From: Olivibacter sp. XZL3
Lineage (GTDB): Bacteria; Bacteroidota; Bacteroidia; Sphingobacteriales; Sphingobacteriaceae
Assembly (NCBI RefSeq): GCF_004368405.1
Contig: NZ_SBJH01000010.1
Span: forward strand, 186,001-250,000
DNA: 64,000 nt
Direction: 5' to 3'
Shown here: piece by piece, positions 9,467 to 46,230 of the stretch
Numbering within the stretch: position 1 is the stretch's first letter
How the letters are laid out: each line of letters begins with the position of its first letter
Translations under genes and position numbers: made by a program
The notes under the pieces: generated by a model
The model's database searches: none
Told to the model about the DNA's origin: nothing
The model's input: only the letters and a program-made list of their open reading frames with translations

Positions 9467-11188
9467 TCATTCACTCCGCAAGCTTTCTATAGGACTGTCC
9501 AATGCCGCCTTAACTGCCTGGAAGCTTATGGTAATTAGGGCAATGAATATGGCCAATGCCCCCGCCGAAACAAACATCCACCATGAAAGGTTAATGTGGT
9601 ATGCGAAATTATTTAGCCAAATACTCATTATCCACCATCCAATCGGAATTGCTAATAATAAGGCAAGGAATACGAGCTTGAGAAAGCCTACAGAAAGCAA
9701 ATAGGCTACATTGGCTACCGACGCTCCCAAAACTTTTCGAACACCAATTTCCTTTACTCGGGATGTAACCGAAAACACGGTTAAACCAAATAATCCCAAA
9801 CAGGATATGAAGGTAGCAAGTACAGCAAAACAGGTGGCGATGCGGCTCACCGTTTGCTCGCTCTGGTACAATTTTGAGAACTCCCAGTCAGAAAACTGAT
9901 AAGTAAAAGGCACCGCCGGATTCATTCGTTGATGTATAGTCTTAAGCCCCTGTAATGCCTTTTCTATTTTTTGGGGAGCTAGGCGAATGAGAACCGTTCC
10001 CCAACCCCAATCGTCATCGAGTCGTATAATAAGCGGTTCAATGACTTGATGCATGGAATTAAAATGAAAATCTTTTAACACGCCAATAACATGCCCTTCG
10101 CGTCCGTTCCAGTTTAGCATTTGTCCAATGGGCTGTTTAAGTCCCATCGCCTTTACCGCAGTTTCATTGATTAGAAAGGCCGCGGTGTCTGTACCGAAAA
10201 CAGCGGAAAAGTCACGCCCTTCTTCGAGCTGGAGACGCATAGTCTTGATGAAATCATAGCCCACTATAGCGTCGGTAAACGATAAGGTGGTTTCTTCCGA
10301 TTTGCCCGGCATAGCCAAGATTGTAAACAAACGAACATACGCTATACGCCCTCCACTGGGGTAGCCATTTTTGAAAACGCTGTACAGGTATTTATCGGTA
10401 TAAGCCAATAAACCGAGCTCGTGTTCAATTCCGTTTTCGCGACTAATGTACTGATAAAGAAAATCCTGTATTTTGGATTCCAATAGGTATAAATCAGCCC
10501 CCTTTTTTAGTAGGATAAAGGTTGCCGGCGAAGCACTTCCCCAAGTTGAGGCCCATTTATTTTTAGCGATGAAAGGTTTCCAAGCTCTTAGAAAATCAAA
10601 CTGCTGCGACGAGTTGGCCGGAATATCTTCAAAAACCGCTGTAACCTCTAAATCTTCCTCTGCTTCCAATCGTATCGTTTGTCCGATGGCCTCTTCCGGG
10701 CTACCGAAAAAATAGGTCGCCATTCGTCGAGAAATCGCTATACCATCTGGAGCAGCAAGTGCAAATGTCTTATTCCCTAATAATAAAGGGTAACTGAACA
10801 TCGATAAAAAATCGTTCCCTGCAAAAAAGCCGACCATTTTGCCTGTCTTTCCCTTTACCTCCAAATTACTACCCGTACCCGGAGCGGCAATATATTCAAA
10901 ACCACTAGCCATTTCAATTTCAGGAAATTTGCGCTTAAGTTCATCTGCCAAAAGGCCCTGTGTGGCAAAACCTGCTTCCGACTTTCCCTCATAAGTGTTG
11001 CGGCTATATACCTGAAATAAGCGGTCGCTCTGTTTATGGAAATGGTCCATCTGTCTTTCATCCTGCACCCAAAGCAATAAGAAAATACTGCTACAAATGC
11101 CCAGGGCTAAACCGGCCACGTTGAGCATCGACGTGAGTCGGTCCTTCATCAGAAAACGCCAAACGCTTTTAACTTGCTGCATTACCAT
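9467..11188 (-). CDS. MacB/FtsX-type permease with a large in-frame internal deletion
   Basis: A 573-aa protein. The N-terminal helix (NVAGLALGICSSIFLLLW) and first periplasmic domain are normal. At about residue 290 (near 10305-10318) YVRLFTILA runs directly into PGKSEETTLSF and the second periplasmic domain. In full-length relatives such as the gene at 15123 about 220 residues stand here, holding the rest of the first FtsX domain and its helices. The second FtsX domain is intact (SRVKEIGVRKVLGAS and three helices). The frame stays open across the junction. Such a protein keeps one of two FtsX domains and is probably non-functional or altered. A sigma54-like promoter and paired palindromes lie upstream. 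Confidence 0.85.
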   Translation of the reverse strand: MVMQQVKSVWRFLMKDRLTSMLNVAGLALGICSSIFLLLWVQDERQMDHFHKQSDRLFQVYSRNTYEGKSEAGFATQGLLADELKRKFPEIEMASGFEYIAAPGTGSNLEVKGKTGKMVGFFAGNDFLSMFSYPLLLGNKTFALAAPDGIAISRRMATYFFGSPEEAIGQTIRLEAEEDLEVTAVFEDIPANSSQQFDFLRAWKPFIAKNKWASTWGSASPATFILLKKGADLYLLESKIQDFLYQYISRENGIEHELGLLAYTDKYLYSVFKNGYPSGGRIAYVRLFTILAMPGKSEETTLSFTDAIVGYDFIKTMRLQLEEGRDFSAVFGTDTAAFLINETAVKAMGLKQPIGQMLNWNGREGHVIGVLKDFHFNSMHQVIEPLIIRLDDDWGWGTVLIRLAPQKIEKALQGLKTIHQRMNPAVPFTYQFSDWEFSKLYQSEQTVSRIATCFAVLATFISCLGLFGLTVFSVTSRVKEIGVRKVLGASVANVAYLLSVGFLKLVFLALLLAIPIGWWIMSIWLNNFAYHINLSWWMFVSAGALAIFIALITISFQAVKAALDSPIESLRSE

Positions 11189-11212
11189 TTTTTATCCGTT
11201 TACTAGGAGGCT

Positions 11213-11228
11213 ATCAAAGGAGCTGCCA
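11213..11228 (-). promoter_or_regulatory. Sigma54-like -24/-12 promoter of the FtsX gene
   Basis: On the minus strand the sequence reads TGGCAGC, 4 nt, TTGAT. It matches the sigma54 consensus TGGCACG-N4-TTGCW at the -24 element and in spacing, with GA in place of GC at -12. It ends 24 bp before the start codon. The palindromes at 11281-11318 lie 52 bp further upstream, a plausible activator position. Confidence 0.5.
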
Positions 11229-11280
11229 GATGATAAAATGGCTGTAGGTATGTATTAACAAAGGGAATCGGTTTTTCTAT

Positions 11281-11318
11281 TGTCCGTAAACGGACACTTT
11301 TTTGTTCGGTATCGAACA
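11281..11318. promoter_or_regulatory. Paired 16-bp palindromic activator sites (TGTNCG-N4-CGNACA)
   Basis: TGTCCG-N4-CGGACA at 11281-11296 and TGTTCG-N4-CGAACA at 11303-11318 are perfect palindromes whose centres lie 22 bp, two helical turns, apart. The same pair with the same spacing occurs upstream of the full-length FtsX gene at 15123. I read them as binding sites of an NtrC-family dimeric activator. Confidence 0.65.
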
Positions 11319-11424: not shown

Positions 11425-11495
11425 GGTCGGATGGCCGAGCGGTTAGGCAGAGCTCCGCAAGAGATCCCACAGTGGTTCGAATCCACTTCCGACCT
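11425..11495 (+). tRNA. tRNA-Cys (GCA) with atypical anticodon arm
   Basis: A 71-nt cloverleaf. The acceptor stem is GGTCGGA with TCCGACC and there is a GCC/GGC D-stem. A perfect T-arm (AGTGG/CCACT) carries the loop TTCGAAT, and the discriminator is T73 as expected for Cys. The anticodon is GCA. Two features are odd: position 33, almost always T, is C, and the anticodon stem has one G-A mismatch (29-41). CCA is not encoded. It may be functional or a decaying copy. It is followed by the strong hairpin at 11528-11563. Confidence 0.85.
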
Positions 11496-11527
11496 CCTAT
11501 TGAACTGACTCTTTCCTGATTTTGATT

Positions 11528-11608: not shown

Positions 11609-13039
11609 TCAGTCTTCTCTGCTACCGTCATCCGCCATGCGGACCATCTTTGGCGTGAACGTTGCCACAATATCCACCAGATCTTGCTGTGCCGCCATCA
11701 CTTCGTGGATGTCTTTATAGGCCATAGGGGCTTCGTCGCGCCCGGCACCTACCAATGTGACTCCATGGGCGTTCAACACTGCTTGCATGTCTGCGCGACT
11801 GATTGTTTTGATTGCTTGCGTGCGGCTCATTTGCCGACCGGCGCCATGTGCCGCCGAGTTGATAGAGTCAGCCTCACCCTTGCCGCGTACCAGAAAGCCC
11901 GGGGCTGTCATCGAACCTGGAATGATGCCCATTACGCCTTCTCCAGCCGGTGTAGCGCCCTTTCGGTGTACCACCACTTCACGGCCATTCCATGTTTCTT
12001 TCCAAGCAAAATTATGGTGATTTTCTACGCGGGCCAGTACCGTTGAACCGAGGGCCGTGGCCATCTTATGATGGATGACTTCGTGATTAGCCGAGGCATA
12101 GTCGCCGGCTAAATTCATCGCTTGCCAGTAGGCTTGGCCTGCCTCGGTGTCCAGACCGAGGTACGCCAAATTACTTGCCTCCTGCGGCAGTCGGCACAAC
12201 TCTTTTGCCAGTTTCGTAAAGTGACCAGCTATGGTCGCGCCGAAGCCCCGTGAACCGGAGTGGGAGAGGAGTGCCAAATATTTTCCGGCCGGAACACCTA
12301 ATGCTTTATCAGCTTGTAGAAATTCGATGATGCCAAATTCGGCAAAGTGATTGCCGCCTCCAGATGTGCCGAGCTGCGCCCATGCTTTATCTTTCAGGCC
12401 TGAAATAAAAGGCGATAAGTCAAATGCAGGGTCGCTTAATACAGCGTGGTCGGCACGTTCGGATTGCTTAAAGCCCTGTCCCGCTCCAAAGCGAGTCTGC
12501 GCAATTAACTCTCTTTTAAATTTTGCCTGATGTTCCGTAAAGAAAGCTTCCGGGATATCGTAAATGGATAACGCCATCCGGCAGCCAATATCTACCCCTA
12601 CACCGTAAGGAATCACGGCGTTTTCCACGGCAAGCACGCCGCCAATCGGCAAACCATAGCCTTGGTGGGCATCGGGCATCAGTGCGCCGGCAACCGTCAC
12701 GGGCAATTGCATGGCGATGTCCATTTGCTTACGCGCACCTTCCTCAATTTGTTCAGCGCCGTAAATAGCGTAGCTGTCCGTTTGTTGTCGCAAAGGAATA
12801 GAGACATCGCCCTGCATATTCGCCTCTTCTATTAATGCCCCGGCAAGCTTACCATATACAGTATGCCCAATATACTCCTTCGGCGTTGCCAGCACATCCG
12901 TTAATTGCGCTAGTAGTGTCTTTTTCTCTATTTGCATATTCTGGTCGGCCGTTCGTAATGCGATGCCAAAAGCACGTCCGGGCATATAACCGATGGCGAG
13001 CAGTTCTTCGCTGCTGATGCGTTCGTTTGTTGTACTCAT
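11609..13039 (-). CDS. rtcB: RtcB-family RNA ligase
   Basis: A 476-aa protein that matches RtcB, the GTP- and Mn-dependent ligase that joins 2',3'-cyclic phosphate or 3'-phosphate ends to 5'-OH ends. The metal-binding motifs are visible: MPDAHQGYG (near residue 120), GVDIGC with the conserved Cys (near 147), and GGGNHF. The nucleotidyl-accepting His is in HGAGRQMSR (near residue 398). In bacteria the enzyme repairs cleaved tRNA or rRNA. No rtcA or RtcR-like regulator is adjacent. The gene ends beside tRNA-Cys but is transcribed toward it, so co-transcription is excluded. Confidence 0.93.
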   Translation of the reverse strand: MSTTNERISSEELLAIGYMPGRAFGIALRTADQNMQIEKKTLLAQLTDVLATPKEYIGHTVYGKLAGALIEEANMQGDVSIPLRQQTDSYAIYGAEQIEEGARKQMDIAMQLPVTVAGALMPDAHQGYGLPIGGVLAVENAVIPYGVGVDIGCRMALSIYDIPEAFFTEHQAKFKRELIAQTRFGAGQGFKQSERADHAVLSDPAFDLSPFISGLKDKAWAQLGTSGGGNHFAEFGIIEFLQADKALGVPAGKYLALLSHSGSRGFGATIAGHFTKLAKELCRLPQEASNLAYLGLDTEAGQAYWQAMNLAGDYASANHEVIHHKMATALGSTVLARVENHHNFAWKETWNGREVVVHRKGATPAGEGVMGIIPGSMTAPGFLVRGKGEADSINSAAHGAGRQMSRTQAIKTISRADMQAVLNAHGVTLVGAGRDEAPMAYKDIHEVMAAQQDLVDIVATFTPKMVRMADDGSRED

Positions 13040-14942: not shown

Positions 14943-14980
14943 TGTACGAGTACGGACAAACCGGTGTTCGAATACGAACA
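14943..14980. promoter_or_regulatory. Paired palindromic activator sites upstream of the full-length FtsX gene
   Basis: TGTACG-N4-CGGACA at 14943-14958 (one mismatch) and TGTTCG-N4-CGAACA at 14965-14980 (perfect, extendable to a 12-bp stem) have centres 22 bp apart, exactly as at 11281-11318. The second is also a hairpin that could terminate the upstream esterase gene, but the pair spacing argues for protein binding. Confidence 0.65.
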
Positions 14981-15033
14981 CCGGTTGAAAAGATCAAAGT
15001 GTCAGTTCTTTGATTATCAGTGTTTTGTTTCTT

Positions 15034-15049
15034 TGGCAACTTTTTTGGA
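15034..15049 (+). promoter_or_regulatory. Sigma54-like -24/-12 promoter of the full-length FtsX gene
   Basis: TGGCAAC, 4 nt, TTGGA follows the sigma54 pattern with GG in place of GC at -12. It starts 53 bp after the palindrome pair, matching the 52-bp gap at the other FtsX gene, and 73 bp before the start codon. Confidence 0.5.
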
Positions 15050-15122
15050 ATCCGTCATTGACAATAATAGACCAAAGTATTTAGACGGTCTTTAACAGTT
15101 TTCGAAGACACCCACGATACCC

Positions 15123-17516
15123 ATGATAAAAAACTACTTCAAAACCGCATGGCGCAATTTATGGAACAGTAAAATGTTCAGCGCATTGAATATTTTCGGA
15201 TTGGCTGTCGGCCTTGGCGTAGCCTTGTTACTTTCGCTCTTTATCATTCAGGAGCGCTCGTATGACGCTTTTCCTAATCGGGAAAAAATCTTCCGCTTCC
15301 TTGCACATATAAAATATGAAGGAAGCAATATGGTATGGGCCGGTGTGCCCAACGCTGTCGGACCGACAGTGCAGCGCAACAGACCAGAGGTAGTTTTAGC
15401 TGCCCGTACGTTGTTAAATGGCTTCGGTGATAACGCAAATATTACCGTTGGACATGACGCTTATATTGAAAGCCGCTTATATTGGGCCGATCCGGGCATT
15501 CTGGATATATTTGATTTCCAATTTATCCATGGCAGTCGGAAAACAGCACTGAACGAACCCAATACCATTGTGCTGTCCCAAACCAAAGCGAAACAGTATT
15601 TTGGCGATAAAAATCCTGTCAATAAAACCGTAGAATTAGATAGAAACACCACATTGAAAGTAACGGGAGTCTATGCAGATTTGTCGGCTACCAGTACCTT
15701 TGATGCGGAACTGATTGCCTCTTTCAGTACCTCGCATTTTTCGAAAAAAATGACTTGGGACAATGCCAGCTTCGAAACCTGGGTGATGTTGAAAGATGCC
15801 GACGATCGCCTTAAACTGGAGGCTTACCTTCCTAAGATGATCGAGGAGCACGTCGGCGCCGAGGGCACTTATTATGATCTGTCACTTCAGCCGTTGAGTG
15901 AAGTGCATTTAAATTCCACCGGAATTAATAGTTATAGCGACCGGAAGGGTGATGCCGCACAACTTCGGCAATTGACGTATTTAGCCATTGCCTTGCTGTT
16001 GATGGCGGCTATCAATTATATGAATCTCGCGACTGCACGTGCACAGCAGCGCAGTAAAGAAGTAGGAGTAAGTAAGACCCTCGGCGCTAGCAGGAAAGTT
16101 TTGTTGGGGAAGTTTTACGTCGAAACAGCCGTATTGACGCTTATCGCCATTAGCTTCGGCTTGGCGCTGACCGTTTTGGGTATACCCATATTCAACGCGC
16201 TATCCGGCAAGAATTTGGTTTACGGTACACTATCACATCCTGTGTTTTGGGTAGGTTTGCCGATATTGTGGCTTTCGCTCACGCTGTTTTCGGGCCTTTA
16301 CCCAGCAATTATTCTCTCCTCTTATACGCCGCTGGAAGCCCTCCAGAAAGGGAAGACGGTGCGTACCGGATCGGCGCTTTTCCGTCGCTCGCTCGTTGTA
16401 TTGCAGTTTACCGCCAGTATTGTCCTCATTGTAGGTGTTGTTATCATGCACCGGCAGATGGACTTTCTAAGCCACCGTAAACTCGGTTATAATCCGGAGA
16501 ATGTCATTGCAATCGGTCTGAGTTCGCTGAAAAATGAGCAGGAAATAGATGCCCTGCGAAACCAGATAGGTGCATTAGCCTCCACCCAGAGCATGGTGTT
16601 GTCTCAAGCGTTTCCGGGAAAAGGTGAGAGTGGTCATTTCATTCGTAAAGACGAAGCAGATAAGCAGGGTGCTAATTTGTACACGAGTCGAGTGGATGGC
16701 GACATTGAAAACGTACTGCAGCTGAAGCTGCTGGCCGGAAGGATGGTTAAGGAGCGTGTAAACAGCGATACGACAGAAAATGGCGGATGGATTTTCGAGG
16801 TGGTACTTAACAAATACGCGGTTGACTATCTTGGTTTAACACCAGAAGAAGCCATCGGGAAAAAGCCCTTGATAGGGATGGGAGACCATACCTATGTCGT
16901 TGGCGTTGTGGATAACTTCAATTATTCCTCGCTGCACAATCCCATGGGCGCATACGCTTTTACAAACGTGCCCGAAGCACTTCGGTACCTAATGGTGCGT
17001 TTCTCTACGGGCGATCTGCGGAACACGCTTATCCAATATGAAGAGGCATTTAAGCAGGTAGTGCCAAATGCACCTTTCGACTATACCTTCTTAGATAGCC
17101 ATCTGAAAAGTCTCTATTTGGCCGATCGGCAAACGGCATCGGTGCTCCTGGCTTTTTCGGCGCTCGCAGTATTGGTAGGTTGTTTGGGATTGTTTGGCTT
17201 GGCAGCATTTACGGCAGAAAAGCGGACCAAAGAAATAGGTGTGCGCAAGGTGCTCGGTGCCACGGTACCATCCCTGGTTCGTTTACTAAGTATCGACTTT
17301 GTCAAATTAGTATTGGTCGCATTCCTCATTGCCTGTCCTTTGGCATACTGGGCTTTCAGCAAATGGCTGGAAAATTTTGCCTACCGTATTGATATGGAGT
17401 GGTGGATGTTCGGGCTGGCGGGCTTGACAGCTAGCTTCATCGCACTGGCAACCGTAAGCTGGCAGGCGATACGGGCGGCCGTGGCCGACCCAGTGAACAG
17501 TCTGAGGGACGAGTGA
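15123..17516 (+). CDS. MacB/FtsX-type ABC permease, full length
   Basis: A 797-aa inner-membrane permease with the duplicated layout usual in Bacteroidota. A first N-terminal helix (about residues 20-42) and periplasmic domain are followed by a first FtsX domain with three helices at about 280-395 (SKEVGVSKTLGASR). A helix near 430 leads into a second periplasmic domain, then a second FtsX domain at about 675-790 (TKEIGVRKVLGAT). No ATPase is adjacent; such permeases often use an ATPase encoded elsewhere. It shares sigma54-like control with the shortened paralogue at 9467, so both may belong to one envelope-stress or export regulon. It serves as the reference showing what the paralogue has lost. 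Confidence 0.9.
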   Translation: MIKNYFKTAWRNLWNSKMFSALNIFGLAVGLGVALLLSLFIIQERSYDAFPNREKIFRFLAHIKYEGSNMVWAGVPNAVGPTVQRNRPEVVLAARTLLNGFGDNANITVGHDAYIESRLYWADPGILDIFDFQFIHGSRKTALNEPNTIVLSQTKAKQYFGDKNPVNKTVELDRNTTLKVTGVYADLSATSTFDAELIASFSTSHFSKKMTWDNASFETWVMLKDADDRLKLEAYLPKMIEEHVGAEGTYYDLSLQPLSEVHLNSTGINSYSDRKGDAAQLRQLTYLAIALLLMAAINYMNLATARAQQRSKEVGVSKTLGASRKVLLGKFYVETAVLTLIAISFGLALTVLGIPIFNALSGKNLVYGTLSHPVFWVGLPILWLSLTLFSGLYPAIILSSYTPLEALQKGKTVRTGSALFRRSLVVLQFTASIVLIVGVVIMHRQMDFLSHRKLGYNPENVIAIGLSSLKNEQEIDALRNQIGALASTQSMVLSQAFPGKGESGHFIRKDEADKQGANLYTSRVDGDIENVLQLKLLAGRMVKERVNSDTTENGGWIFEVVLNKYAVDYLGLTPEEAIGKKPLIGMGDHTYVVGVVDNFNYSSLHNPMGAYAFTNVPEALRYLMVRFSTGDLRNTLIQYEEAFKQVVPNAPFDYTFLDSHLKSLYLADRQTASVLLAFSALAVLVGCLGLFGLAAFTAEKRTKEIGVRKVLGATVPSLVRLLSIDFVKLVLVAFLIACPLAYWAFSKWLENFAYRIDMEWWMFGLAGLTASFIALATVSWQAIRAAVADPVNSLRDE

Positions 17517-46192: not shown

Positions 46193-46230
46193 TGTTCGAT
46201 ACCCCACATCATTTGGTTCGCTGTCGAACA
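46193..46230. promoter_or_regulatory. Possible degenerate copy of the paired palindromic site
   Basis: TGTTCG-N4-CCCACA at 46193 (half-site only) and GGTTCG-N4-CGAACA at 46215 stand 22 bp apart, the same distance as the pairs at the FtsX genes. No convincing sigma54 -12 element follows, so this is tentative. Confidence 0.35.

Follow-up and report, generated by a model that had tools for sequence, protein, structure and literature searches.

The locus considered here raises a question of control: two permease genes in the window, by which we mean the whole 64,000-nucleotide stretch of Olivibacter sp. XZL3 DNA that was analysed, are each preceded by a pair of palindromes and a sigma54-type promoter element, and it is asked what reads these sites, which genes they serve, and where their reader is encoded. 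The two promoters and the genes that they face comprise the following features:

9467..11188, minus strand: MacB_PCD/FtsX permease, 573 aa, predicted target of the first promoter (open reading frame, Pfam, paralogue comparison)
11214..11228, minus strand: sigma54-type -24/-12 element TGGCAGCTCCTTTGA, read as TGGC AGCTCCT TTG A, with a predicted start near 11202
11281..11296, no strand: candidate promoter-proximal activator palindrome TGTCCGTAAACGGACA (pattern scan and genome-wide model)
11303..11318, no strand: candidate promoter-distal activator palindrome TGTTCGGTATCGAACA (pattern scan and genome-wide model)
14943..14958, no strand: candidate promoter-distal activator palindrome TGTACGAGTACGGACA, with the arm mismatch TGTACG/CGGACA (pattern scan)
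14965..14980, no strand: candidate promoter-proximal activator palindrome TGTTCGAATACGAACA (pattern scan)
15015..15027, plus strand: IHF-like element TATCAGTGTTTTG, one mismatch to WATCAANNNNTTR, 19 bp before TGGC (enrichment over the promoter set)
15034..15048, plus strand: sigma54-type -24/-12 element TGGCAACTTTTTTGG, read as TGGC AACTTTT TTG G, with a predicted start near 15060
15123..17516, plus strand: full-length duplicated MacB_PCD/FtsX permease, 797 aa, predicted target of the second promoter (open reading frame, Pfam)

At the first promoter, both palindromes (TGTCCG-N4-CGGACA and TGTTCG-N4-CGAACA) lie where they had been predicted, each is perfect, and the coordinates give the expected 22 bp between their centres and 52 bp from the nearer palindrome to the TGGC element. 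The original prediction read that element as TGGC-N8-TTG, which is incorrect; both window elements are TGGC-N7-TTG, the canonical sigma54 spacing. The arrangement had also been said to recur at the other FtsX gene, and this holds for the 22 bp between palindromes (14943-14958 and 14965-14980) and for the promoter element, but one palindrome there has a single arm mismatch, leaving three of the four in the window perfect. The gap from the TGGC element to the nearer palindrome is 52 bp before the gene starting at 11188 against 53 bp before the gene at 15123, and the IHF-like element is absent from the former promoter. A chance origin had been thought unlikely, and the counts agree, with four occurrences of TGTNCGN4CGNACA in the window against 0.02 expected from shuffles. 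A further pair at 46193-46230, which has two mismatches and is followed by no credible -24/-12 element before the next gene, is probably due to chance. Between the first promoter and a gene at 11609-13039, whose product resembles an RtcB-type RNA ligase when judged by eye, lies a tRNA-Cys gene (11425-11497).

The predicted targets are MacB_PCD/FtsX proteins of ~800 aa built in two halves. The permease encoded at 9467-11188 had been described as shortened, and rightly so: at 573 aa against ~800, it lacks ~227 aa in frame relative to its full-length paralogues, the missing part being the first FtsX module, and the promoter of the gene is complete. The window's own assembly (G000; 5.36 Mb in 122 contigs, scored 100% complete) holds 56 MacB_PCD matches. 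Many of the permease paralogues are clustered on one contig, C115 (the cluster being given as 45-121 kb and as 71-121 kb), together with a MacB/LolD-type ATPase (C115:121525), and the cluster is followed by a TolC gene with its own palindrome pair at C115:124857. Two MacB_PCD/FtsX halves, a length of ~800 aa, many paralogues and, mostly, no adjacent ATPase are traits shared with the ADOP family (NCBIfam TIGR03434). However, none of three proteins tested reaches its cut-off of 622.3 bits (245 for the 15123..17516 protein, 138 and 290 for the others), the full-length proteins scoring 245-290, and the proteins considered here belong to Bacteroidota and carry the present promoter.

Across the assembly, the single palindrome is found in 20 places, against four for the reversed control, and pairs at 22 bp with at most three mismatches are found seven times, against none for the control. 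Nearly every credible pair in a relaxed scan of the fetched contigs faces a permease operon, and one faces a TolC gene. When a model of the entire promoter (R1), built from 18 promoters and using sequence only, was run over the whole assembly, it recovered the known promoters and two further permease promoters (on C77 and C62); its other matches were the same palindromes on the opposite strand, or weak. The total is about 20 promoters, with 19 before permeases (the C110 one broken) and one before TolC, and in their layout two palindromes, spaced 21-22 bp, are followed after 51-56 bp by an element of the TGGC-N7-TTG type. Enrichment of the pair before permeases, which the original prediction implied, is seen both at these promoters (19 of 20) and in congeners and near relatives, where 31 of 40 sites precede permeases and the rest include TolC twice and the ATPase once.

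Over the 20 promoters, a -24/-12 match at a gap of 51-56 bp, counted to TGG from where the proximal palindrome ends, was found in 16 instances on the gene side and in none on the other. The GG of this element is invariant in the promoter alignment, and the -12 element is weak in many promoters, with TTG followed by A, G or T instead of C. The palindrome pair lies ~80-150 bp upstream of the predicted start and is specific to the regulon. The sigma factor itself, RpoN, is encoded in the assembly (PF04552 at C78:25827-26306, 190 bits). Of 18 promoters of this genome, 9 have the IHF-like motif WATCAANNNNTTR with one mismatch allowed, usually 19-20 bp ahead of the TGG; shuffled sequences averaged 1.8, and none of 300 shuffles reached the observed number. 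These promoters were picked on palindromes and position only; relatives were found with a promoter model that includes this stretch, which makes the same test on them partly circular.

The neighbours of the pair in other genomes point to its reader. A scan for the bare pair across a public genome collection of 84,980 species gave at least 119 stretches, of which 80 were made into loci. Among the matches listed there are 83 pairs. For 70 of them a neighbouring gene encodes an NtrC-type response regulator, HlyD adaptor, ABC ATPase, TolC, PadR or permease, and 17 of the 83 sit in the gap between a response regulator gene and an HlyD gene. The taxa among these matches are Bacteroidota, Proteobacteria, Acidobacteria, Aminicenantes and Ignavibacteria, with Colwellia, Bowmanella, Aliiglaciecola, Kordiimonas and Niveispirillum among the genera outside Bacteroidota. 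The response regulator beside the pair is of NtrC type and often divergent, and regulators from different phyla have a common C-terminal HTH of the form NIS.AA..LGLTRAALYRRMEK. The congener regulator has receiver (REC), Sigma54_activat and HTH_8 domains (Pfam), and the activator loop reads GAFTDA in Bacteroidota regulators, against GAFTGA in the Aliiglaciecola regulator and in canonical activators. The pair also has other settings: together with a -24/-12 element it precedes a 124-aa, probably secreted protein in Spirosoma and Larkinella (L118:4046, L139:4207, L175:5161), the one such protein tested having no Pfam match, and in Cytophagales (L152:5415, L160:2539, L179:2554, L182:840) it stands before PadR-family-like genes, sometimes with an adjoining permease.

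All four congeners have the regulator (~590 bits) together with 15-22 promoter matches, and in at least three of them (G148, G150, G151) a site lies in the regulator's own divergent promoter. The gene order in G148 and G151 is LMW phosphatase, kinase, regulator, sites, HlyD, ATPase, permease, permease, and the regulated genes in congeners and relatives encode the adaptor, the ATPase, TolC and permeases. The kinase appears, when its sequence is judged by eye, to have two TM segments near the N-terminus with a short loop between them, a layout that would fit a sensor of membrane state. Among 101 genomes of the family, regulator and motif occur together in 35, the regulator only in 22, the motif only in 2 and neither in 42 (Fisher p ~1e-9), while a control pattern gave 0 matches in the same 101. 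The Fisher test treats genomes as independent, and the sounder part of the comparison is therefore the agreement within genera: inside four of them (g2, g3, g84, g90), presence and absence of regulator and motif match species by species. Every sampled genome of another genus, g4, has the regulator without the motif under the pattern used, and the site in this genus may have changed; given the 22 regulator-positive genomes without the motif, which include all those sampled from g4, it is likely that some orthologues recognise a different site or spacing. The proposal of an NtrC-type regulon of FtsX-type permeases is supported by these results, the pairs lying mostly before permeases and an NtrC-type response regulator being tied to them by adjacency and co-occurrence. 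It is highly probable, in our judgement, that the palindrome pair is an upstream activating sequence for an NtrC-family regulator acting via sigma54 on a permease regulon.

The regulator was expected to be absent from the window, as it is, and it is missing from the whole assembly too: a profile search of the assembly found no match to the dedicated regulator, and the strain is one of the two motif-only genomes among the 101. The second of these (G197, genus g86) has motif pairs and no regulator match, and may represent another recent loss or gap. Near C115:44985 (L062:4985), a truncated phosphatase without its first ~38 residues is joined, with no N, to a permease remnant consisting of the last 213 residues, after which comes an orthologue of the next permease (89% identical). 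Relative to congeners, the kinase, regulator, HlyD, ATPase and most of one permease are lost at this junction, and no HlyD adaptor orthologue was found in the assembly (best 26% identity). The reading frames of both junction remnants remain open, and all 20 target sites have been kept intact. Since it is absent, the regulator cannot act in the strain as assembled, and the missing locus means either that the regulon lost its regulator recently or that the assembly is at fault at this point. We incline to a real deletion. An assembly error or collapsed region, with the strain in fact a normal regulator-bearing member, is compatible with control by an NtrC-type regulator and is in our estimate a little on the improbable side. 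The palindromes are all intact, motif and regulator go together elsewhere in the 101-genome comparison, and the same contig has a visible assembly join at C115:54652, where a single N stands between two exact copies of a 31-bp sequence; however, the junction near C115:44985 contains no N and joins two colinear genes, the adaptor is likewise missing, and the assembly is scored 100% complete.

With the dedicated activator absent from this assembly, any control in the strain must come from something else, and the pairs could be operators for a different DNA-binding protein, for example a repressor or a remaining sigma54 activator, the likeness to a -24/-12 element then being secondary. The assembly does encode three other sigma54 activators (C92, C93, C111), for which the regulator profile gives no score above 355 bits. 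However, these were rejected as regulators of the sites, as their HTH recognition regions differ, no strong R1 promoter adjoins them, and in congeners the dedicated regulator is accompanied by further sigma54 activators in the same score range. The motif moreover tracks the dedicated regulator across genomes and is found in that regulator's own promoter in many phyla, and we regard a different binding protein as very unlikely. That the repeats are the leftover of a recent duplication of the permease genes along with the DNA upstream of them, and regulate nothing at present, is barely credible, for although the permeases are paralogues and many are clustered at C115:71-121 kb, the stretches separating the conserved promoter elements can essentially not be aligned, the same site stands before unrelated genes (TolC, HlyD, ABC, PadR, response regulator), and the pair spacing is preserved across phyla among the matches listed.

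Control by the dedicated NtrC-family regulator would then proceed as follows. The regulator, which combines a receiver with an AAA+ domain and a Fis-type HTH and whose recognition region resembles LGLTRxALYRR, would be phosphorylated, presumably in response to an envelope signal, and would bind as one dimer per palindrome, the two lying about two helical turns apart. Once bound it would oligomerise, with IHF/HU-type bending assisting at many promoters, and contact sigma54-RNA polymerase at the -24/-12 element, leading to open-complex formation. The predicted regulon comprises the duplicated MacB/FtsX permease operons and TolC, and in relatives the ABC ATPase and the HlyD adaptor would belong to it as well, as would the divergent locus of the regulator itself, including the two-TM kinase, such that one two-component system could switch on the whole orphan-permease family together with its energy and outer-membrane parts. 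The role of the regulon is probably an envelope-stress or efflux response.

Several known systems resemble the one proposed. NtrC, ZraR, AtoC and the PEP-CTERM regulator PrsR are likewise REC-AAA-Fis proteins with paired palindromic enhancers upstream of a -24/-12 element and an IHF-like site between, but the present system has its own palindrome, TGTYCR-N4-YGRACA, and its own target set; PrsR, AtoC and ZraR were ruled out as the identity of the regulator, all named NCBIfam equivalogs being under their cut-offs. In relatives the regulated set amounts, on sequence grounds, to the parts of a tripartite exporter of ABC type and is similar to MacAB-TolC and the darobactin exporter DarBCD, the HlyD adaptor, ATPase and permease of the congener locus being like DarC, DarD and DarB. 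However, all three are under the equivalog cut-offs (304 bits against 375 for the DarD-like protein, 178 against 450 for the DarC-like and 139 against 700 for the DarB-like), and the ATPases here are few next to the many permeases. In Flavobacterium psychrophilum, -24/-12 sigma54 promoters have been mapped experimentally and three predicted activators are present, but the targets named in the available extracts of that work are chaperones, envelope stress and gliding genes, not the present permease regulon (PMC9723704). A 2025 in-silico survey in PLoS One predicts an enrichment of sigma54 promoters ahead of permeases of COG0577 in Bacteroidia, Gammaproteobacteria and Opitutia, an association that it calls a first link; in a term search of its text, neither activating sites nor an assigned bEBP nor a regulon of orphan permeases came up (PMC12316311). 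A name for the regulator, motif or locus was not found in the open-licence papers searched, in which the activator, site and regulon appear to be undescribed.

Duplicated MacB/FtsX permeases without an adjacent ATPase or known job number in the tens in Bacteroidota genomes and, via the ADOP family, in Acidobacteria; two Dyadobacter genomes, for instance, have 28 and 33 annotated copies (PMC11573002). With an activator site that is short, specific and easily searched for, and a regulator family that is defined, this orphan-permease puzzle becomes a testable regulon, in which all the permeases should respond to deletion of the one regulator gene or to its inducer. Tentatively, the permeases may be interchangeable specificity subunits of one modular exporter, sharing the co-induced ATPase, adaptor and TolC, and if this is true, ADOP-like families in several phyla would have a function and an inducer in common. 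If the deletion is real, the strain would be a natural regulator knockout with its target sites intact.
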